Virus record (IMG/VR): IMGVR_UViG_3300030107_001686
Coordinates: 1-24,361 of that record
Length of the DNA: 24,361 nt
Direction: 5' to 3' (one strand)
Origin: a virus
Part shown: positions 1,884-20,407 of the stretch, one piece after another
How positions within the stretch are numbered: the first letter of the stretch is position 1
Layout of the letters: the number at the start of each line of letters is the position of its first letter
The notes under the pieces: model-generated
The model's input: only the letters and a program-made list of their open reading frames with translations
Database searches by the model: none
Told to the model about the DNA's origin: nothing
Translations under genes and position numbers: made by a program

Positions 1884-2773
1884 TGAAATACGATTTTAAA
1901 ATAAATGAAATTTCTAGGCCAGTTGCAACGGACTTTGTTCAGTCTTTACACTATTCCAAAATTATGCCTAAACTCACAAAACATTTTTTAGGTTGTTACT
2001 TAAAGAATGAACTTGTTGGTGTTTTAACTTTGGGATGGGGAACACAACCAAAAGCAACAATCGCAAAATTGTTTAATGATAAAAATTTATGTCATGTGAA
2101 GTTTGATAAAAAATCTAATAAATTTATTAGTGAAGACTTAGATACAAAAGATTATTATGAAATTGGTAAAATGTGTATGTCAGAACAATTTCCAGATAAA
2201 TCGTACCCAGAATCACAAATGATTTCTGCTGTGGTGAAATGGATGAAAGTAAATACTCCAGAAAAAAAGTTTCTCTATACATGGGCAGATGGTATAATGG
2301 GTAAGCCTGGATATGTGTATCAAGCTGCAAATTTTCTTTATGGTGGTTTTATTTGGACACAGATTTATATTAGTGATAAGGGTGAAAAAATTCATCCAAG
2401 GTCTAGTAGAAGGTTGTGTGATGAAAATGTTAAGTTTAAACTTGCCAAAGAACCAAATTTTTTTGAAGGTAAAAAAGGTGAGAGAATATATTGGTTAACT
2501 CAAGACTTTCTTGATCATAAAGGTATAAGTAAAATACATGGTAAACAATTTAGATATATTCTTCCTTTAAATAAAAAGGCAAGAAAACTTTTAAAAAAAT
2601 CAAATGTAGAATGGAATTTAAATTATCCAAAAGAAAGTGATTTGGTTTGGGATAAATCTACATTAGAGGGTAGAAAACAATTAAGTGATATGCCGTATAT
2701 TGATGGTGATATGACAGAATATAATAAGAAAAATGTTAATGCACATAGAGGTACTTTGGAGGCTTTTCTTTGA
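1883..2773 (+). CDS. Mom-like GNAT-fold DNA modification protein (putative)
   Basis: A 296-residue protein resembling the Mu Mom family, GNAT-fold enzymes that modify adenine in phage DNA and block restriction. Visible landmarks are HYSK (23-26), LVGVLTLG (44-51), an EIGKMCMSEQFP stretch (93-104) equivalent to the Mom strand before the core helix, YTWADG (132-137), and a Gly-rich segment followed by YVYQAANFLYGG (144-155). These are the most recognisable parts of the family; the assignment is by motif memory, not a search. Residues 160-296 are basic and unassigned. The C terminus GTLEAFL matches the end of this phage's DNA polymerase (GTLEDFF). The gene sits between 47 and 46, overlapping 47 by one base and 46 by four, and looks more A+T rich than both, suggesting insertion. 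Confidence 0.65.
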   Translation: MKYDFKINEISRPVATDFVQSLHYSKIMPKLTKHFLGCYLKNELVGVLTLGWGTQPKATIAKLFNDKNLCHVKFDKKSNKFISEDLDTKDYYEIGKMCMSEQFPDKSYPESQMISAVVKWMKVNTPEKKFLYTWADGIMGKPGYVYQAANFLYGGFIWTQIYISDKGEKIHPRSSRRLCDENVKFKLAKEPNFFEGKKGERIYWLTQDFLDHKGISKIHGKQFRYILPLNKKARKLLKKSNVEWNLNYPKESDLVWDKSTLEGRKQLSDMPYIDGDMTEYNKKNVNAHRGTLEAFL

Positions 2774-4482
2774 TAATTTTTAAGTATGTGAGATGGAAGA
2801 ACTTCCTTTCCACTGGTAATCAGTTTACCGAAATACAACTAGACAGAAACAACACAACATTAGTAATAGGAGAGAATGGCTCTGGTAAGTCTACAGTTCT
2901 TGATGCACTATGTTTTGGTTTGTTTGGTAAACCGTTTCGTAATATCAATAAAGGACAGTTGGTAAACTCTGTCAATACTGGTAGTTGTGAGGTCGAAGTA
3001 GATTTTAAGATTGGTACAAAATCATTCAAAGTGATTCGTGGTATCAAGCCAAATATGTTTGAGATTTATATCAACGGTAAGATGTACAATCAAGATGCAA
3101 ATGCAAGAGACTATCAGAAGTATCTTGAGCAGCAAATACTCAAACTAAACTATCGAAGCTTTACACAAGTTGTTATTCTTGGTAGTTCAACATTCATTCC
3201 TTTTATGCAGTTGAAGGCTCGTCAACGAAGAGATGTTGTTGAGGATATTTTAGACATTCAAATTTTCTCTTTAATGAATATGATTCTTAAACAGAAGTTG
3301 AAAACAATTCAAGAGCATCAGAGGGATGCTGACTATAATTTTGATTTAACATCTGAAAAAATCGAACTACAGAACAAGTATATTGAGGATGTAAAGAAGA
3401 ATAAAGGAAAACTCATTACAGAGAAAACATCATTACTTAGCAGTAATGAGGAAGAAATACACACTCGACAAAAGAAGGTAGAGGAACTTAAACAAGTCAA
3501 TAAAGATTTAGGTTTTGATACTACACACCTAAACGACACTACAACAAAGGTTCAGAAACTAAAAGGTATTGATGCAACACTAAAAGAGAAACGATCTGCA
3601 ACGAAGAAGTATATAGATTTCTTTGAGGAAAATGATGACTGCCCTGTTTGTGAACAGCATATTGATGAGACATTCAAAGAGAATATGATTGTGACCAAGA
3701 AAGGTGAGCATGACAAATTCAACAATGGTATTCAAGAGTTATCAGAGGAATTAAAAAAACAAGAGGATTTACTGGCAGCTATAAACAGTTATATTGGGAA
3801 GATACGAGAAAATGATGCCGAGATAGGTAAGATTAGTTATTCTATTAAAGAAATGGAAAAATTCAATACCACTTTGCGGTCAGAGATTGAACAACTACAA
3901 TCTGGTGAGGTGAGTAAAGAAGATATGGATAAACTCAAAAAACTCAAAAAATCTTTGAAGTCATATCAAACACAACAACAAGGATTGCGTGAAGAACAAA
4001 CTTATGCAGAAGCTGCTCGTAATATGTTGATGGACACTGGTATCAAGACAAAGATTATCAAGCAGTATCTTCCTATCATGAACAAACTGATAAACACCTA
4101 CCTTACTGCAATGGAGTTCTATGTTAACTTTACATTGAATGAGAACTTTGATGAAACAATCAAGTCTCGACACAGAGATGATTTTACGTATGCGTCTTTT
4201 AGTGAAGGTGAGAAGATGCGTATTGACCTTGCACTACTCTTTACTTGGAGAGCAGTTGCAAAGATGAAGAACAGCACAAATACTAACCTGTTAATTTTAG
4301 ATGAGATATTTGATAGCTCCCTCGACTCTACAGGAACAGATGAATTTCTAAAGATACTCAATACTTTAGATGGTGAGAACGTATTTGTGATTAGTCATAA
4401 ACAAGATGTACTTGTAGACAAGTTTAGAAGTACAATACGATTTGAGAAGGTGAAAAATTTTAGTCACATAACAGGATCATGA
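2770..4482 (+). CDS. 46: Recombination endonuclease subunit gp46 (Rad50/SbcC-like)
   Basis: SMC-like ATPase partner of gp47. Walker A is GENGSGKS at 34-41; the ABC signature lies in FSEGEK near residue 478; Walker B and D-loop are LLILDEIFDSSLD near 507-519, followed by a conserved VISHK. Between the ATPase halves is a coiled coil interrupted by a zinc hook, CPVC at 291-294. The 570-residue length matches T4 gp46 (560). The start is TTG at 2770, overlapping the preceding stop (TTGA); the first residues IIFKYVRWKNFLSTG are the usual gp46 beginning, so this start is well supported. The stop overlaps the next ATG (ATGA). Confidence 0.93.
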   Translation: MIIFKYVRWKNFLSTGNQFTEIQLDRNNTTLVIGENGSGKSTVLDALCFGLFGKPFRNINKGQLVNSVNTGSCEVEVDFKIGTKSFKVIRGIKPNMFEIYINGKMYNQDANARDYQKYLEQQILKLNYRSFTQVVILGSSTFIPFMQLKARQRRDVVEDILDIQIFSLMNMILKQKLKTIQEHQRDADYNFDLTSEKIELQNKYIEDVKKNKGKLITEKTSLLSSNEEEIHTRQKKVEELKQVNKDLGFDTTHLNDTTTKVQKLKGIDATLKEKRSATKKYIDFFEENDDCPVCEQHIDETFKENMIVTKKGEHDKFNNGIQELSEELKKQEDLLAAINSYIGKIRENDAEIGKISYSIKEMEKFNTTLRSEIEQLQSGEVSKEDMDKLKKLKKSLKSYQTQQQGLREEQTYAEAARNMLMDTGIKTKIIKQYLPIMNKLINTYLTAMEFYVNFTLNENFDETIKSRHRDDFTYASFSEGEKMRIDLALLFTWRAVAKMKNSTNTNLLILDEIFDSSLDSTGTDEFLKILNTLDGENVFVISHKQDVLVDKFRSTIRFEKVKNFSHITGS

Positions 4483-4676
4483 TTTTATTTAGAATACTAT
4501 TGATTACGATGATGAATGACCAACTCGTAGACAAACAAGAAATCGCTGTCTATGAACTTAAAACCACAGTTGAGCATTGTGAGGAGTACATAAAACCCAC
4601 ATTTGACAGAACTTATGTGTCAAAGGATTCTCACAGAATGGAACTAAAAACAGTTACGGAGTGTTTGAAAATATGA
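4479..4676 (+). CDS. Small hypothetical protein, 65 residues
   Basis: Not recognised. The ATG at 4479 overlaps the gp46 stop (ATGA), and the gene's own stop TGA at 4674-4676 overlaps the ATG of the methyltransferase at 4673, so it is tightly coupled on both sides, which supports a real gene. The first ten residues are hydrophobic (MILFRILLIT) but too short for a membrane span; ATG codons at 4509 and 4512 give shorter forms beginning MNDQLVD. The rest is mixed charged, with Cys in the middle and near the end. Confidence 0.5.
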   Translation: MILFRILLITMMNDQLVDKQEIAVYELKTTVEHCEEYIKPTFDRTYVSKDSHRMELKTVTECLKI

Positions 4677-5944
4677 TTATTAATGGTGATTGTTTAGAGG
4701 AAATGCAAAAATTGATTGATGATGGAGTACAAGTGGACTCTATTGTTACAGACCCACCATATCATTTAACATCTATTGTAGAACGATTTGGTAAAGAAGG
4801 TTCTGCTCCAGCACAAGAAGGAACTGATGGTGCATTTGCAAGAGCATCAAAAGGTTTTATGGGTAAAGAATGGGACGGTGGAGACATTGCATTTAGACAA
4901 GAGACTTGGGAACTTGCGATGAAACTATTGAAGCCAGGCGGTCATCTACTTGCATTTTCTGCTTCTCGTAATTATCACAGAATGGCAGTTGCAATCGAAG
5001 ATGCTGGTTTTGAAATTCGTGACCAGATTATGTGGATATATGGAAGTGGGTTTCCAAAAAGTTTGAATATTGGAAAAGGTATTGATAAGAAACAAGGTAA
5101 CGAAAGAGAAGTCGTTGGTGAGGTCAGAGCTGGAAAAAATGCACTAGGACAAGACAGTGGTTGGAATAAACATAATAACAGAACAGAGATAGAGGTAACA
5201 AAAGGTAATTCTGAATGGGAAGGTTGGGGAACTGCTCTCAAGCCTGCACACGAACCGATTGTGATGGCAAGAAAGTCTATAGAGGGTACTATTGTTGATA
5301 ATGTATTGAAACATGGAACTGGTGGCATCAACATTGATGATTGTAGGATTGAAACGGAAGAAAATCTAAATGGTGGTGCTTATGCGAAAAATGGAAATAG
5401 AAGATCGTTAGTAAGTGATATTAGATCAGGTGCTTCTGAAGGTATGTTTCAATCTAAAAAAACTGTAGGAGAAGATTTTGTACAACCGACAGGTAGATTC
5501 CCTGCCAATGTAATGCATGATGGTAGTGATGTTGTGCAAGATATATTTCCAAAGACCTCTAAATCTACTGGTGGAAAAACTAAAAGTGATTTTGGTGACA
5601 TATATGGAACTTATTCTGGTGATGTGTTATCAAGTAGTTCAGGCGGATTTGGTGATGAGGGAACAGCTGCAAGATATTTCTATTGTCCTAAAGTATCAAG
5701 TGCAGAGAGAGGCGAGGATAATACGCATCCCACAGTAAAACCGCAAGAGTTGATGAAATACCTATGCAGACTCGTAACACCAAAGAACGGCACAGTCCTA
5801 GACCCATTTATGGGTAGTGGTTCGACAGGAATGGCTGCCAAGGATGAAGGGTTTGAGTTTATCGGTATAGAACGAGAAAAAGAATATTTTGAGATTGCAG
5901 AGAAACGAATAAGTAGTTATGCACCATTGATGGAATTTATGTAA
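4673..5944 (+). CDS. DNA methyltransferase, DPPY type (N6-adenine or N4-cytosine)
   Basis: Amino-methyltransferase with the catalytic motif DPPY at residues 27-30 ahead of the SAM-binding motif DPFMGSG at 377-383, the permuted (beta-class) order. The large middle region (about 120-340) carries a GSGFPKSLN stretch and a WGTALKPAHEPIVMARK stretch common in phage enzymes, plus a Gly/Ser-rich probable target-recognition loop. HPTVKP before motif I is typical. DPPY favours N6-adenine over N4-cytosine but does not prove it. I chose ATG 4673 (423 residues), which overlaps the upstream stop and has GGAG at 4658-4661; an in-frame GTG at 4661 lies inside that site. No restriction endonuclease is adjacent, so it is a solitary phage methyltransferase. 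It ends in a hydrophobic PLMEFM. Confidence 0.88.
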   Translation: MIINGDCLEEMQKLIDDGVQVDSIVTDPPYHLTSIVERFGKEGSAPAQEGTDGAFARASKGFMGKEWDGGDIAFRQETWELAMKLLKPGGHLLAFSASRNYHRMAVAIEDAGFEIRDQIMWIYGSGFPKSLNIGKGIDKKQGNEREVVGEVRAGKNALGQDSGWNKHNNRTEIEVTKGNSEWEGWGTALKPAHEPIVMARKSIEGTIVDNVLKHGTGGINIDDCRIETEENLNGGAYAKNGNRRSLVSDIRSGASEGMFQSKKTVGEDFVQPTGRFPANVMHDGSDVVQDIFPKTSKSTGGKTKSDFGDIYGTYSGDVLSSSSGGFGDEGTAARYFYCPKVSSAERGEDNTHPTVKPQELMKYLCRLVTPKNGTVLDPFMGSGSTGMAAKDEGFEFIGIEREKEYFEIAEKRISSYAPLMEFM

Positions 5945-12613: not shown

Positions 12614-12892
12614 ATGTACAAATACAGTGAAGATAAAACTCTTGCAGAGTTGAAAGACTATATTGATGGCACTTATGACCAACATTACAGCAAGAACAAG
12701 TTTCAGGCTACCGAATTTATAATTGATGGTGGTCATGGTGAAGGTTTCTGTATCGGCAATATCTTGAAATACGCTCAACGATATGGAAAGAAGGATGGTA
12801 AGAACCGCAAGGATTTACTAAAGGTGATTCATTATGGAATCATCGCACTACACATTAATGATATGGAGAATATAGATAATGAAATTAAGTGA
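12614..12892 (+). CDS. DUF3310-like small protein
   Basis: A 92-residue protein resembling the DUF3310 family of phage proteins, related to the nucleotide kinase region of T7 gp1.7. The family core is visible: HYSKNKFQATEFI (24-36), a Gly-rich FCIGNILKYAQRYGKK (45-60), then KNRKDLLKVIHYGIIAL (62-78). A TTG at 12578 in the same frame is not a credible start because it is the -35 box itself. With ATG 12614 the transcript would begin at or one base before the start codon, and the only upstream AGG is four bases away, so no proper ribosome-binding site exists. The 3' end overlaps gp45 by 14 bases. Confidence 0.75.
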   Translation: MYKYSEDKTLAELKDYIDGTYDQHYSKNKFQATEFIIDGGHGEGFCIGNILKYAQRYGKKDGKNRKDLLKVIHYGIIALHINDMENIDNEIK

Positions 12893-13544
12893 ACAAACAG
12901 TGTCGATACTGAAAAATTTTTCTGCTATCAACCAAAATCTAATAATTAAACAAGGGAGTGAAATTGCTACAGTCAGTGCAATGAAGAACATCGTGGCATC
13001 TGCTAAAGTTGAAGAGAGTTTTCCAATAGAGTTTGCAATCTATGACTTGAACGAATTTCTTTCTGCCCTATCTCTTTTTGAAAAACCAGATTTAGATTTT
13101 CAAGAGAACTATGTTCTTATAACTGAATCAGGTTTTAAGGGTAAAAGTTTGAAATATTGGTTTAGTGATTCCTCTGTAGTTACTTCACCAAACAAGGAAG
13201 TAACTATGCCTTCAAGTGAAGTTAAGTTTCCTCTACAGAGTAACGTGTTGTCAGAGGTTCAGAAAGCTGCAGCTGTTATCGGTGCTCCCGATATGGTGCT
13301 TGAGGATGATAAGTTACGAGTGACAGATAAAAAGAATGATACTGCAAACTCTTATTCAATTCCTCTTGATACAGAGTCAAATGGTGCAAGTTATAAATTC
13401 TGGTTCAAGGTTGAAAATCTTAAATTATTGCCAGGATGTTATGATGTTGAAGTTTCATCAAAACGCATCAGTCATTTTCAGAATAAAAAATTACCTGTGG
13501 GATATTGGATTGCACTAGAACCTGAGTCGTCCTATGGTAATTAA
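12879..13544 (+). CDS. 45: DNA polymerase sliding clamp gp45
   Basis: Trimeric clamp that tethers gp43 to DNA and, in T4, also activates gp55-dependent late transcription. Identified by position just before gp44 and by overall likeness to gp45: 221 residues (T4 has 228), an N terminus MKLSEQTVSILKNFSAINQNL typical of the family, and alternating beta-strand sequence throughout. The ATG overlaps the end of the DUF3310-like gene and has GGAG ten bases upstream. Its stop is two bases before gp44. Confidence 0.92.
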   Translation: MKLSEQTVSILKNFSAINQNLIIKQGSEIATVSAMKNIVASAKVEESFPIEFAIYDLNEFLSALSLFEKPDLDFQENYVLITESGFKGKSLKYWFSDSSVVTSPNKEVTMPSSEVKFPLQSNVLSEVQKAAAVIGAPDMVLEDDKLRVTDKKNDTANSYSIPLDTESNGASYKFWFKVENLKLLPGCYDVEVSSKRISHFQNKKLPVGYWIALEPESSYGN

Positions 13545-13546
13545 TC

Positions 13547-14482
13547 ATGGAAACATTTTTATGGGTTGAACAGTATCGTCCTAAAACTGTTGATGATTGT
13601 ATTCTTCCACAATCTCTGAAAGGTACTTTTAAAGAGTTTGTAGAATCTGGTAACATACCAAATATAATTTTATCTGGTGGCCCAGGCGTTGGTAAGACAA
13701 CTATCGCAAAGGCTGTACTAGATGAAATCGGTGCAACGTATATGATGATAAATGGTTCTGAGGAATCTGGTATTGATGTTCTTAGAACTAAGATTAAAAA
13801 CTTTGCATCTACGGTATCTCTTGAGGGTGGTAGAAAGTATCTGATTCTTGATGAGGCAGATTATTTAAATCCACAATCAACTCAACCAGCCTTGCGTGGG
13901 TTCATGGAAGAGTTTCATAAGAACTGTGGTTTTATTCTAACTTGTAATTACAAGAATAGATTGATTGAACCACTACACTCTCGTTGTAGTGTGATTGACT
14001 TTACAATTCCAAAATCTGAGAAACCACAACTTGCTACAGAGTTTATGCGACGTGTTGTTGGTATTCTTGAAAACGAAAATGTAGAGTATGACAAGAAAGT
14101 TCTTATTGAGGTAATTCAACGACACTTTCCAGATTGGAGGCGTATACTAAACGAACTGCAAAGGTATTCTATTTCTGGTCGTATTGATGCTGGTATCCTA
14201 GTTGATATGGCAGAGATAAATATTAAGGAACTGATGAAGTTCATGAAAGAGAAGGAGTTTACTAATGTTCGCAGATGGGTTGTTAATAATCTTGACATGG
14301 ATGCTGTACGCCTTTATCGGAGTATTTACGATAGCCTGTATACTTTCCTTGATCATAGTACTATACCTCATGCTGTCTGTATACTATCTGAATATCAGTA
14401 TAGAGGAGCATTTGCGGCCGATCAAGAAATCAACACCTTGGCATGTCTCACAGAAATAATGGCAAAGGTTAAATTTAAATGA
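13547..14482 (+). CDS. 44: Clamp loader ATPase subunit gp44
   Basis: AAA+ ATPase of the clamp loader (four gp44 with one gp62 in T4) that opens gp45 and places it on primer-template DNA. Walker A is GPGVGKT (45-51), Walker B has the DEAD variant (102-105), and the SRC motif with the arginine finger lies in PLHSRCSVIDF near 145-155. The 311-residue length matches T4 (319). The N terminus WVEQYRPKTVDDCILP is the family's usual start. No strong ribosome-binding site is seen before ATG 13547, so translation is probably coupled to gp45, two bases upstream. Confidence 0.95.
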   Translation: METFLWVEQYRPKTVDDCILPQSLKGTFKEFVESGNIPNIILSGGPGVGKTTIAKAVLDEIGATYMMINGSEESGIDVLRTKIKNFASTVSLEGGRKYLILDEADYLNPQSTQPALRGFMEEFHKNCGFILTCNYKNRLIEPLHSRCSVIDFTIPKSEKPQLATEFMRRVVGILENENVEYDKKVLIEVIQRHFPDWRRILNELQRYSISGRIDAGILVDMAEINIKELMKFMKEKEFTNVRRWVVNNLDMDAVRLYRSIYDSLYTFLDHSTIPHAVCILSEYQYRGAFAADQEINTLACLTEIMAKVKFK

Positions 14483-14976: not shown

Positions 14977-15096
14977 ATGTATGAATTAAAAGTAAAGAGC
15001 GGAACCTATACAGCAGATAGTTTTTTTGAATTGTGTTGGGTAGTATTTCAACATCGTCTACATCACTTTTGTAAGGGTGAAGGGTTTAGAGATTAA
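14977..15096 (+). CDS. Small protein, 39 residues, between the oxygenase and gp62
   Basis: ATG at 14977, three bases after the oxygenase stop; its TAA at 15094-15096 overlaps the gp62 ATG (TAATG), so it fills the gap exactly and couples to gp62. The product begins MYELKVKSGTYTADSFFELC and ends HHFCKGEGFRD. It is mixed basic and aromatic and is compatible with small hypothetical proteins of T4-like marine phages. It shares its first five residues, MYELK, with gp62. Confidence 0.6.
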   Translation: MYELKVKSGTYTADSFFELCWVVFQHRLHHFCKGEGFRD

Positions 15097-15491
15097 TGTA
15101 TGAGTTGAAAGACTATCTTAATGCAATAAACCATACCAAAGAAAGATTGATGGATACAGAGGATGAAGAATGGGAAAGAAAATATCCACCTTTCATCGTA
15201 AATAAGTGCCTATCTGGCTTTCAAGATACCATAATGTTGGTTAATGAGATTAACTGTACACCAAATGTAGACAAAAAACTCCAATTTGATTTTTTAATAA
15301 ATAGTATACGTCCAAGGAAAAGGTTTACTCCTTGGTTGAAGGCGAATAAATTAGAGAATCTAGAGTATGTTAAAGAGTTTTATGGATACAATAACGAGAA
15401 AGCAAGGAACGCTCTAAACATATTGAATGATGAACAAATCGCCACCATAAAACAAAAATTAAATAAAGGTGGAAAAAATGGAAGAAGTTAA
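15096..15491 (+). CDS. 62: Clamp loader small subunit gp62
   Basis: Non-ATPase subunit of the clamp loader. Recognised by YPPFIVNKCLSGFQDTIMLV (from residue 31), the QFDFLINSIRPRKRFTPWLK segment (residues about 68-87) and the C-terminal FYGYNNEKARNAL, all usual for gp62 of marine T4-like phages. At 131 residues it is shorter than T4 gp62 (187), the typical compact form in those phages. It begins inside the stop of the small ORF upstream and its last codons overlap the regA start. Confidence 0.9.
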   Translation: MYELKDYLNAINHTKERLMDTEDEEWERKYPPFIVNKCLSGFQDTIMLVNEINCTPNVDKKLQFDFLINSIRPRKRFTPWLKANKLENLEYVKEFYGYNNEKARNALNILNDEQIATIKQKLNKGGKNGRS

Positions 15492-17911: not shown

Positions 17912-20407
17912 ATGAATTTTTATACAAATGTCCTTCAACGTGGAAACAATCTCCATGTTCGTGCTGTCGTAAACGGTGAACGACAAAACTTTAAGATTCG
18001 ATATCAACCCACTCTATTTTATCCTGTTGATTATGAAACTGGATACAAAACCCTAGAGGGTAAATCAGTTAGACCAAAAAACTTGGCCACAATGAAAGAG
18101 GCTAAAGATTGGGTTGATTTATATGAGAGTCAGCCAGGTCAAGTTTATGGTAATACTCAATACGCATATAACTATATCTCTGATACGTATGAGGGTCAAG
18201 TCGATTGGGATTTAGACAAGATACTCATTGTTACAATTGATATCGAAGTTGAGTGTGAGAATGGATTTCCTTCTGCAAAACTAGCAGAGGAACCAATGCT
18301 GTCAATTACGATTAAGAATCACCAAAACAAAAAGATTGTGGTGTTTGGACTTCATGAGTTTCAAAATGACCGTGATGATGTTACGTATATTCACTGTGAA
18401 AGTGAAATACATCTGTTAAAAGAGTTTCTTATATTTTGGGAGAAACATCAACCAGATATCATCACAGGCTGGAATACAGAGTTCTTTGATATACCATATC
18501 TCTGCAATCGAATCACTCATTTGTTTGGTGAGGATGAAATCAAACGTCTGTCACCTTGGGGTGTTGTCTATTCCAAAGACATTTACAAAATGGGTAGAAA
18601 TCATCAAGTGTATGCGATACAAGGTGTTGCTGGACTTGACTACTTTGACCTGTACCAGAAATTTACATATACTGCACAAGAGTCTTATCGTTTAGATCAT
18701 ATTGCATTTGTTGAGTTGGGTGAAAAGAAAGCTGGTAATCCCTATGAAACTTTCAGAGATTGGTATCAGAAAGATTATCAATCGTTTATCGAATATAACA
18801 TACAAGACGTTGAGATTGTTGATAAGCTAGAGGATAAGATGAAGTTGATTGAACTTTGTCTTACCATGGCTTATGATGCAAAAGTTAATTATATGGATGT
18901 TCTTGGTACAGTTAGATATTGGGATGTTCTCATATACAACTATCTCAAAGAACATAATATTGTTATACCACAAAAAATGCCACATGATAAAGCTGCACAG
19001 TTTGAAGGTGCATATGTAAAAGACCCACAAGTAGGTATGCACAAATGGGTCATGTCTTTTGATCTAAATAGTCTATATCCTCATTTGATTATGCAGTATA
19101 ATATTTCACCAGAGACTCTTATTCCTTCTGATGAGAAGGCACCAGAGAAGATGGTGGATAAAATTCTAAAAGGTAGTGTCACCAATAACACAAAATATTG
19201 CATGGCTCCTAACGGTGCATTTTTCAGTAAGGATAAAAAAGGGTTTCTTCCAGAACTAATGGAGACTATCTACAATGACAGAGTTAAGTACAAAAAACTT
19301 CTGTTGGAATCTAAACAGAAATTTGAGGACACTAAGGACAAAAAGTATCTCAAGGATATCTCAAGGTATGAGAACATCCAAATGGCCAAAAAGATTTCAC
19401 TCAATAGTGCGTATGGTGCGATTGGGAATTCTTGGTTTCGGTATTTTGATCTTAGAAATGCTGAAGCTATTACAACAAGTGGTCAGTTATCTATACGATG
19501 GATTGAAAAGGCACTTAACATCTATCTCAACAAGATTATTGGAACTGAGAAAGAAGATTACGTTATTGCGAGTGATACGGACTCAGTATATATTACTTTT
19601 GACGCACTTGTACATAAATCTTTTAAAAATGGAAATCCATCTACAGACTCCATCGTTCGCTTTCTGGATAAAATTGCCACTAATAAAATTGAACCATTTA
19701 TTGATGTATCTTATCAAGCTCTTGCTAAGGTGGTAAATGCGTATGACCAGAAAATGGTCATGAAACGAGAGGTGATTGCAGACAAAGGTATCTGGACTGC
19801 CAAGAAACGGTATATTCTCAACTGTCATGATATAGAGGGTGTTCGATACAAGACTCCTAAACTCAAGATGATGGGCATCGAAGCAGTCAAGAGTTCAACT
19901 CCTGCTCCTTGCCGAGACAAGATTAAAGAGGCAATGAACATCATTATGAACGGTGATGAGAAAATGCTAAATACCTTTATACAAGAGTTTCGTGAGGAGT
20001 TTATGAAATTACCACCAGAAGATATTGCATTTCCTAGAAGTTGTAATGGAGTGCAAAAGTTTAGGGGTGAAAGTTCTTTATATAAAAAGGGCACTCCAAT
20101 TCATGTTAAGGGTGCGCTATTATATAATTTTTTAGTTGAAAAGGAGAAGTTAGAAGGTAAGTATCCAAAAATACAAGAGGGTGATAAGATTAAATTTATA
20201 AACATGAAACAACCAAATATCTATCAATCCAGTGCATTTTCTTTTATAACTTCTATGCCAAAGGAACTTGACTTATTGAACAAAATAGACTATGATGTAC
20301 AATTCGAGAAGAGTTTTGTAGAACCGTTAAAATTTATTACACAGAAGATGAATTGGTTGATAGACAGTAGTTATGGCACACAAGGAACACTAGAGGATTT
20401 CTTTTAA
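17912..20407 (+). CDS. 43: Family B replicative DNA polymerase gp43
   Basis: Replicative polymerase with 3'-5' proofreading, 831 residues (T4 has 898). Exonuclease motif I is D110-I-E112, and the Exo III segment contains YNIQDVEIVDK near 294-304. Polymerase motifs follow: A, DLNSLYP (384-390); B, KKISLNSAYG (493-502); C, DTDS (555-558). The protein is intact with no split or intein. The C terminus GTLEDFF fits the clamp-binding peptide of gp43 proteins. The first residues MNFYTNVLQRGNN look like a normal gp43 start, so ATG 17912 is credible although no Shine-Dalgarno precedes it and the promoter puts the transcript start on the ATG. A tRNA follows one base after the stop. Confidence 0.96.
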   Translation: MNFYTNVLQRGNNLHVRAVVNGERQNFKIRYQPTLFYPVDYETGYKTLEGKSVRPKNLATMKEAKDWVDLYESQPGQVYGNTQYAYNYISDTYEGQVDWDLDKILIVTIDIEVECENGFPSAKLAEEPMLSITIKNHQNKKIVVFGLHEFQNDRDDVTYIHCESEIHLLKEFLIFWEKHQPDIITGWNTEFFDIPYLCNRITHLFGEDEIKRLSPWGVVYSKDIYKMGRNHQVYAIQGVAGLDYFDLYQKFTYTAQESYRLDHIAFVELGEKKAGNPYETFRDWYQKDYQSFIEYNIQDVEIVDKLEDKMKLIELCLTMAYDAKVNYMDVLGTVRYWDVLIYNYLKEHNIVIPQKMPHDKAAQFEGAYVKDPQVGMHKWVMSFDLNSLYPHLIMQYNISPETLIPSDEKAPEKMVDKILKGSVTNNTKYCMAPNGAFFSKDKKGFLPELMETIYNDRVKYKKLLLESKQKFEDTKDKKYLKDISRYENIQMAKKISLNSAYGAIGNSWFRYFDLRNAEAITTSGQLSIRWIEKALNIYLNKIIGTEKEDYVIASDTDSVYITFDALVHKSFKNGNPSTDSIVRFLDKIATNKIEPFIDVSYQALAKVVNAYDQKMVMKREVIADKGIWTAKKRYILNCHDIEGVRYKTPKLKMMGIEAVKSSTPAPCRDKIKEAMNIIMNGDEKMLNTFIQEFREEFMKLPPEDIAFPRSCNGVQKFRGESSLYKKGTPIHVKGALLYNFLVEKEKLEGKYPKIQEGDKIKFINMKQPNIYQSSAFSFITSMPKELDLLNKIDYDVQFEKSFVEPLKFITQKMNWLIDSSYGTQGTLEDFF

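Follow-up and report, generated by a model that had tools for sequence, protein, structure and literature searches.

Does a phage enzyme that modifies DNA, and that ends in nearly the same short peptide as the phage's own DNA polymerase, work on replicating DNA by way of that peptide? The question is raised by positions 1 to 24,361 of a virus record 36,313 bases long, the whole stretch of DNA analyzed here and called the window below. It carries the T4-type genes gp55, gp47, gp46, gp45, gp62 and gp43, together with genes for a Mom protein and a DNA methyltransferase. An original prediction, made from sequence alone, held that Mom shares the C-terminal clamp-binding-type peptide of the polymerase and that such an ending would tether it to the moving replisome, so that modification could follow the fork.

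A Mom protein with a polymerase-like ending

The window Mom protein matches PF25680 (E=4.2e-46, 157.6 bits against a cut-off of 27.1) and phrog_1384, and is linked to the Mom protein of phage Mu both by a profile match (E=1e-25) and by structure, with Mu Mom (8bv8) being the top Foldseek match to its AF2 model (E=1e-13). It is thus a member of the Mom family with the fold of Mu Mom; that it carries out an adenine N6 acylation-type modification is inferred. Mu Mom differs at its end, FKVQPYPK, which is not a clamp-type tail. The window gene lies between gp47 and gp46, and the T4 alpha-glucosyltransferase gene, between 47 and 55, occupies a comparable region. The features considered here are as follows.

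302-823, + strand: gp55-type late sigma factor (phrog_234, E=1.2e-59)
800-820, + strand: gp55 C-terminal peptide GLEKFME (read from the sequence)
828-1883, + strand: gp47 (SbcD-like), immediately upstream of Mom (phrog_100, E=1e-110)
1883-2773, + strand: Mom-family DNA modification protein (GNAT fold), 296 aa, in the order gp47-Mom-gp46
2750-2770, + strand: clamp-binding-type peptide GTLEAFL at the Mom C terminus (stop codon at 2771-2773)
2758-2762, + strand: GGAGG within the tail codons, the probable Shine-Dalgarno site of gp46 (TTG start at 2770)
2770-4482, + strand: gp46 (SbcC-like), downstream neighbor overlapping the end of Mom (phrog_77, E=3e-170)
4661-5944, + strand: N6/N4 DNA methyltransferase (PF01555, E=1.8e-33; phrog_67, E=8e-71)
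5921-5941, + strand: methyltransferase C-terminal peptide APLMEFM (read from the sequence; PL[MS][EDN]F[FM] tails in T4-context relatives)
12879-13544, + strand: gp45-type sliding clamp, the proposed partner (phrog_223, E=1.8e-70)
13547-14482: ORF which we take to be gp44, from its position and relatives and without a family scan
15096-15491, + strand: gp62-type clamp-loader small subunit (phrog_225, E=6e-46; PF16790)
17912-20407, + strand: gp43-type DNA polymerase (phrog_262, 1082 bits)
20384-20404, + strand: gp43 C-terminal peptide GTLEDFF (read from the sequence; [ST]LExFF conserved in a gp43 scan)

The C terminus of the window Mom reads ...NVNAHRGTLEAFL. All four endings named in the original prediction were confirmed (GTLEAFL for Mom, GTLEDFF for gp43, GLEKFME for gp55 and PLMEFM for the methyltransferase), and its span for the Mom peptide, 2749-2773, was right to within one base, the peptide codons starting at 2750. 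Among the gp55 relatives compared, LExFM is kept, often with a few residues after it.

Peptides of this type are known from gp43, gp55, gp33 and DNA ligase, which use them to bind a hydrophobic pocket of gp45 (PMC7892883, PMC2988020), and the tails of T4 gp43, gp55 and gp33 are interchangeable (PMC2988020). As in those three T4 proteins, the motif found here is short, acidic-hydrophobic and placed at the very C-terminal end, following a flexible segment, in a phage that has gp45; unlike in them, it sits on DNA-base-modifying enzymes, which we did not find described with it in the literature searched. By sequence and predicted structure the window Mom fits a gp45 client, with physical binding inferred: it has a gp43-like terminal motif, a gp45-type clamp in the same genome, whose model matches the fold of the gp45 structures 6drt, 1b77 and 1czd, and a flexible end, with residues 291-296 having pLDDT below 50 in an AF2 model that has an ordered core.

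The ending is rare and, polymerase aside, is found mostly on DNA-modification enzymes

We screened ORFs blindly for the strict tail pattern [AGST][LIM][DENQS]xF[FLMIV]x0-2$. The first screen covered 1834 non-redundant ORFs from T4-like contigs (the window, Melnitz, L004-L015, L023-L035, L086, L159-L238 and L239-L318, leaving out L016-L022 and L036-L158), with 94 families of at least five members. Its loci had been picked for gp43 or Mom, a choice that in itself inflates the share of these two families; the remaining three tailed families were not sought in advance. The pattern was present in 176 of the 1834 ORFs, and 170 of these fell into the five families that had the tail in half or more of their members: gp43 (77/81), Mom (73/78), N6/N4 methyltransferase-like proteins (8/8), QueC/asparagine-synthase-like proteins (7/12) and Tet_JBP dioxygenases (5/10). 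Outside these families it was found in only 6 of 1645 ORFs. A six-residue tail profile trained solely on 53 gp43 peptides was passed by 8 of 1440 other ORFs and by 2 of 1834 shuffled tails, and 72 of 81 Mom tails exceeded the 99.5% background level. The window Mom tail scored 9.7 bits against 7.3 for that threshold, with window gp55 (0.9) and the window methyltransferase (0.2) both below it. The predicted likeness of the Mom and polymerase endings therefore held beyond chance, by pattern counts as well as by the gp43-trained profile.

A second screen of 100 T4-context loci (1040 ORFs), fetched for the methyltransferase and TET families, found the tail in 27 of 33 Tet_JBP proteins, 26 of 27 gp43 proteins, 14 of 47 methyltransferases and a handful of others. 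The profile was passed by 2 of 13 members of a family of TET-associated glycosyltransferases (PF20691), and a looser pattern picked up the motif in 8 of the 16 TAGT-like ends; in the non-T4 loci of this screen 1 of 290 ORFs passed the profile. The two screens show that, polymerase aside, families with this ending are mostly DNA-modification enzymes, and that the tail is not peculiar to Mom, being carried also by N6/N4 methyltransferases, TET/JBP dioxygenases and some TET-associated glycosyltransferases. In one locus, a TET-associated glycosyltransferase ending NLEEFFS (L261:1473-2267) directly precedes a Tet_JBP-family dioxygenase ending GSLEEFLGE (L261:2264-3220), so that successive steps of one pathway bear the same tail. 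The QueC/asparagine-synthase-like proteins (L302:6687-7505 and relatives) adjoin gp43.

The Mom tail follows the clamp context

The original prediction called for a comparison of Mom-like homologues in T4-like genomes with those elsewhere. We grouped 137 Mom proteins into 74 clusters at 92% identity, 57 of them with known context; the 17 of unknown context (5 tailed, 12 tail-less) were kept outside the 2x2 table, and Melnitz-like clusters whose own contig lacked replication genes were scored as T4-context by at least 78% similarity to Melnitz. A tail of the F/W-hydrophobic type was present in 50 of the 52 clusters with T4-type context and in none of the 5 in which no T4-type clamp or loader was detected (Fisher 5e-6, not corrected for the tree). 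The tree yielded one independent contrast in favor and none against, which is too few for significance; in addition, many contigs are fragments, a caveat on the context calls. The tail-less set includes large contigs (95 to 380 kb) that gave no match to gp45 (phrog_223) and no relative of the clamp loader. Three records of this set have a family-B polymerase, for which the match to the T4-type model ends before the C-terminal part, and the two such polymerases inspected have no terminal motif. The tail is also absent from the Mom proteins of the named non-T4 phages Mu, PAN70, BarretLemon, KP13-7, LP-064, Riggi, Y8A and ET-ABTNL-9.

In Melnitz, a complete T4-like phage of Methylophilales, Mom ends ATLEGFF, gp43 ends TTLEDFFG and a Tet_JBP protein ends NLNDFLGE. 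Contigs that carry both Mom and gp43 have paired endings that are alike by group (MTLEEFFE with NTLEGFFE, TLDNFLR with TLDQFF, xFFG with xFFDF), a co-variation that is confounded with descent. In another group, both Mom and the neighboring methyltransferase have FW endings (HKFWR and NDFWE in L039).

The prediction was to be refuted by loss of the ending in close homologues. Apparent losses were found in L016-L022: a Mom gene 88% identical in DNA to T4-like relatives occurs in two otherwise unrelated contigs without the motif, the similarity stopping just before the tail, and one copy adjoins a phrog_38 terminase. Reading the three forward frames immediately after Mom in L016-L022 uncovered no frameshifted tail. 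Since the same Mom gene here lies in non-T4 surroundings, this loss supports the clamp reading rather than refuting it. True exceptions to the rule are the tail-less T4-context Mom proteins of L037/L038, beside uvsX and gp41, and of L066, where gp43 ends NTLERFF.

Two further observations concern Mom genes outside T4-like phages. The contigs of L018 (9974-10802) and L022 (5569-6397) share this Mom gene alone, at 98.6% identity over 829 bases, and the gene seems to move alone. The Mom protein of L036 (6973-7803), whose contig carries a non-T4 primase-helicase, ends GQMELFI, near the bacterial clamp motif, and is the only such Mom seen. A genome-contig search with Y8A Mom returned no bacterial Mom homologues.

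Methyltransferase endings differ between replication contexts

The original prediction had rated the methyltransferase ending a weaker match. It is meaningful nonetheless, as the family shows the same association with context and a switch to bacterial beta-clamp-type endings elsewhere. From 82 loci we obtained 56 distinct methyltransferase ends (54 of 57 rows entered the tree, under identity and length cut-offs). The gp45-type tail was found on 28 of the 35 ends with T4 replisome genes on the contig and on none of the 21 without (Fisher 1.8e-9, not tree-corrected); of the 7 T4-context ends that lack it, 5 are aromatic variants such as PLMDCFE, QHDFF and GEFWK. Conversely, Q..[LM][FLIM] endings such as QLKLF, QNDLF and QPDMF were carried by 14 of the 21 methyltransferases without T4 replisome genes and by none of the 35 with them. 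In non-T4 loci the terminal beta motif was present on 16 of 23 methyltransferases and on none of 267 other ORFs; it was found in 0 of 1040 ORFs in T4-context loci and in 3 of the 1834 ORFs of the first screen. The Q.. endings form three separate lineages on the tree, and the independent contrasts were three for and none against (p=0.25).

Motifs that bind the bacterial clamp have the consensus Q-phi-x-[LM]-[FL] (PMC11139829). QLKLF fits it, and QNDLF and QPDxx fit save at position 2, where their residue is not aliphatic and where known bacterial clamp ligands tolerate change; QPDMF is also near the QADMF of Pol III alpha. Binding of these endings is untested, and no paper on QLxLF on a phage DNA methyltransferase was found in the literature searched. 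Unlike these relatives, the window methyltransferase itself has a gp45-type ending. No family A, B or C polymerase was found in 24 such non-T4 records, including the contigs of L018, L022 and L036, which is consistent with use of the host replisome; this is weak evidence, because the records are fragments. One of them, L351, has portal, terminase and primase-helicase genes. A PDB profile search with the 424-aa methyltransferase-like family gave no match. Separately, the T4-like phage Melnitz has a 73-aa ORF just upstream of gp43 (L084:1142-1363) whose ending, EQLPLFS, is of the bacterial-clamp type.

A proposed clamp tether

The peptide, its conservation in T4-like phages, its dependence on clamp context, its recurrence on other modifiers and the switch to beta-type endings in methyltransferases are all shown by these data. 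What they mean is inferred. We propose that the flexible end of Mom is a short gp45-binding peptide of the gp43/gp55 type, which would dock in the hydrophobic pocket of the clamp and keep Mom on newly replicated phage DNA. Adenine modification could then keep up with replication, shielding the DNA before host nucleases arrive, and other modifiers would use the same gp45 pocket and likewise act on new DNA. That the tail brings modification to replicating DNA is the likely reading, with gp45 binding, its consequence for modification and the gain for the phage each inferred. The homologue checks thus support the predicted tether that follows the fork; 'tethered' remains an inference, because there are neither gp45 binding data nor a model of the complex. 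Counting against the reading, 5 of 12 QueC-like and about half of the TAGT-like proteins lack the tail.

Clamp-bound DNA modifiers are already known in kind, and the general idea of the original prediction is not wholly new. The T4 alpha-glucosyltransferase, likewise a phage DNA modifier associated with the sliding clamp, pulls down gp45 (Sommer 2004, cited in PMC13216743, where the pull-down was repeated). It differs from Mom in fold and chemistry, and its ending, FDIITK, lacks the motif, so gp45 can be reached by other routes as well. Promoter swaps in T4 showed that the alpha-glucosyl share in vivo depends mainly on how strongly the enzyme is expressed rather than on its clamp binding (PMC13216743). 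Similarly, DNMT1 is a DNA modifier brought to newly replicated DNA by a short motif that binds PCNA (PMC9690074), in a system that differs in being eukaryotic, in performing maintenance methylation and in using another motif. The prediction's statement that no Mom protein has been described as clamp-tethered held in the literature searched, which misses most subscription papers; the relevant sections of the phage momylation paper that we found make no link between Mom and the clamp. Nor did the literature searched yield any account of clamp-type tails being conserved on Mom, methyltransferase, TET and glycosyltransferase proteins, or of their dependence on the replisome.

Alternative explanations

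The ending might be a by-product of overlap with the gp46 ribosome-binding site, with the amino acids merely following. In favor of this, TTG GAG GCT holds GGAGG seven bases ahead of the gp46 start, and all 19 genes of the window's clade have such a site within their final 21 bases. The tail codons of this clade are nearly fixed as TTG GAG (Leu TTG in 15/16, Glu GAG in 16/16), and because GGAGG sits within them their conservation does not count as support for the peptide; for this clade, the overlap is a partial confounder. However, the Phe, the final Leu/Ile and the Thr lie outside the site, yet are conserved. Furthermore, in the Melnitz-like clade, where Mom is located elsewhere, the motif is kept despite free synonymous change: in 26 Melnitz-like Mom genes the Leu is invariant (26/26) while using all six codons, the Phe is likewise invariant (26/26), position +1 is acidic in 25/26 and position +2 is free, giving [TSN]-L-[ED]-x-F-F with few exceptions. 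Such a site is lacking in 52 of 78 genes of the Melnitz-like clade, and the motif is also found on other enzymes with different downstream genes. Overlap as the whole cause is thus very unlikely and we reject it, as the motif persists in clades without the site; it is a second constraint in the window's clade and is refuted as a general cause.

Alternatively, the tail may serve a role other than clamp binding, such as contact with a different hub of replication or recombination, stabilization of the protein or dimerization. There are no binding data for the tail, and in some groups with FFG or FW endings no clamp was identified by phrog_223. Nevertheless, we consider this unlikely, since gp43 and gp55 have the same tail and are known to use gp45 (PMC2988020, PMC7892883), and outside T4-like phages the methyltransferase family bears endings of the class established for the bacterial clamp (consensus in PMC11139829). 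Less plausible still, and very improbable in our view, is that the tails persist in T4-like phages by shared ancestry alone, with no present function. Changes of context and tail on the trees are few, leaving the contrasts underpowered. However, the same ending is found on the unrelated GNAT, Rossmann methyltransferase, 2OG dioxygenase and glycosyltransferase folds, for which common descent is no explanation; the motif stayed through extensive synonymous change; and the Q..[LM][FLIM] endings are carried by three separate methyltransferase lineages.

Returning to the clamp reading, a bolder form of it is that modifiers of unrelated folds carry exchangeable tails matched to the replisome, gp45-type in T4-like phages, beta-type in apparent users of host machinery and none where a clamp was not found. 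We lean slightly toward this form. If it is true, methyltransferase, TET dioxygenase, glycosyltransferase and Mom could form a modification station on new DNA, and the tail would tell which clamp an enzyme serves. A clamp tether would also explain how phage DNA is protected at the speed at which it is copied, ahead of host restriction or CRISPR nucleases, and it would offer a simple way to search sequences for more replisome-linked modifiers, the candidates being uncharacterized ORFs with the ending beside TET or Mom genes.

Other observations and further tailed proteins

The window ORF at 14479-14973 matches phrog_274, named endonuclease V; Pfam gives only a sub-threshold match to 2OG-Fe(II) oxygenase, and the name is doubtful. 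Large ORFs of the window's virus (L086:518-4321) and of Melnitz (L084:14914-16866) both end GLSGGGNFFW, with no clear relation to the clamp tail. In the gp47-Mom interval of L029 (3819-4232) and L030 (3632-4045), a 137-aa ORF with a weak match to NERD nuclease ends SPLEQFFK. Beside a Mom gene, a macro-domain protein (L055:11109-11684; PF01661, E=1.8e-8) ends VTLDSFI, the same type of tail, and may possibly be a clamp-linked de-ADP-ribosylase of DNA or protein. Finally, four proteins near TET or methyltransferase genes have a gp45-type tail and no family match (L253:8721-9470, L253:10909-11796, L275:4873-5490 and L445:7358-8635), and are possible candidates for unknown DNA-modification steps.
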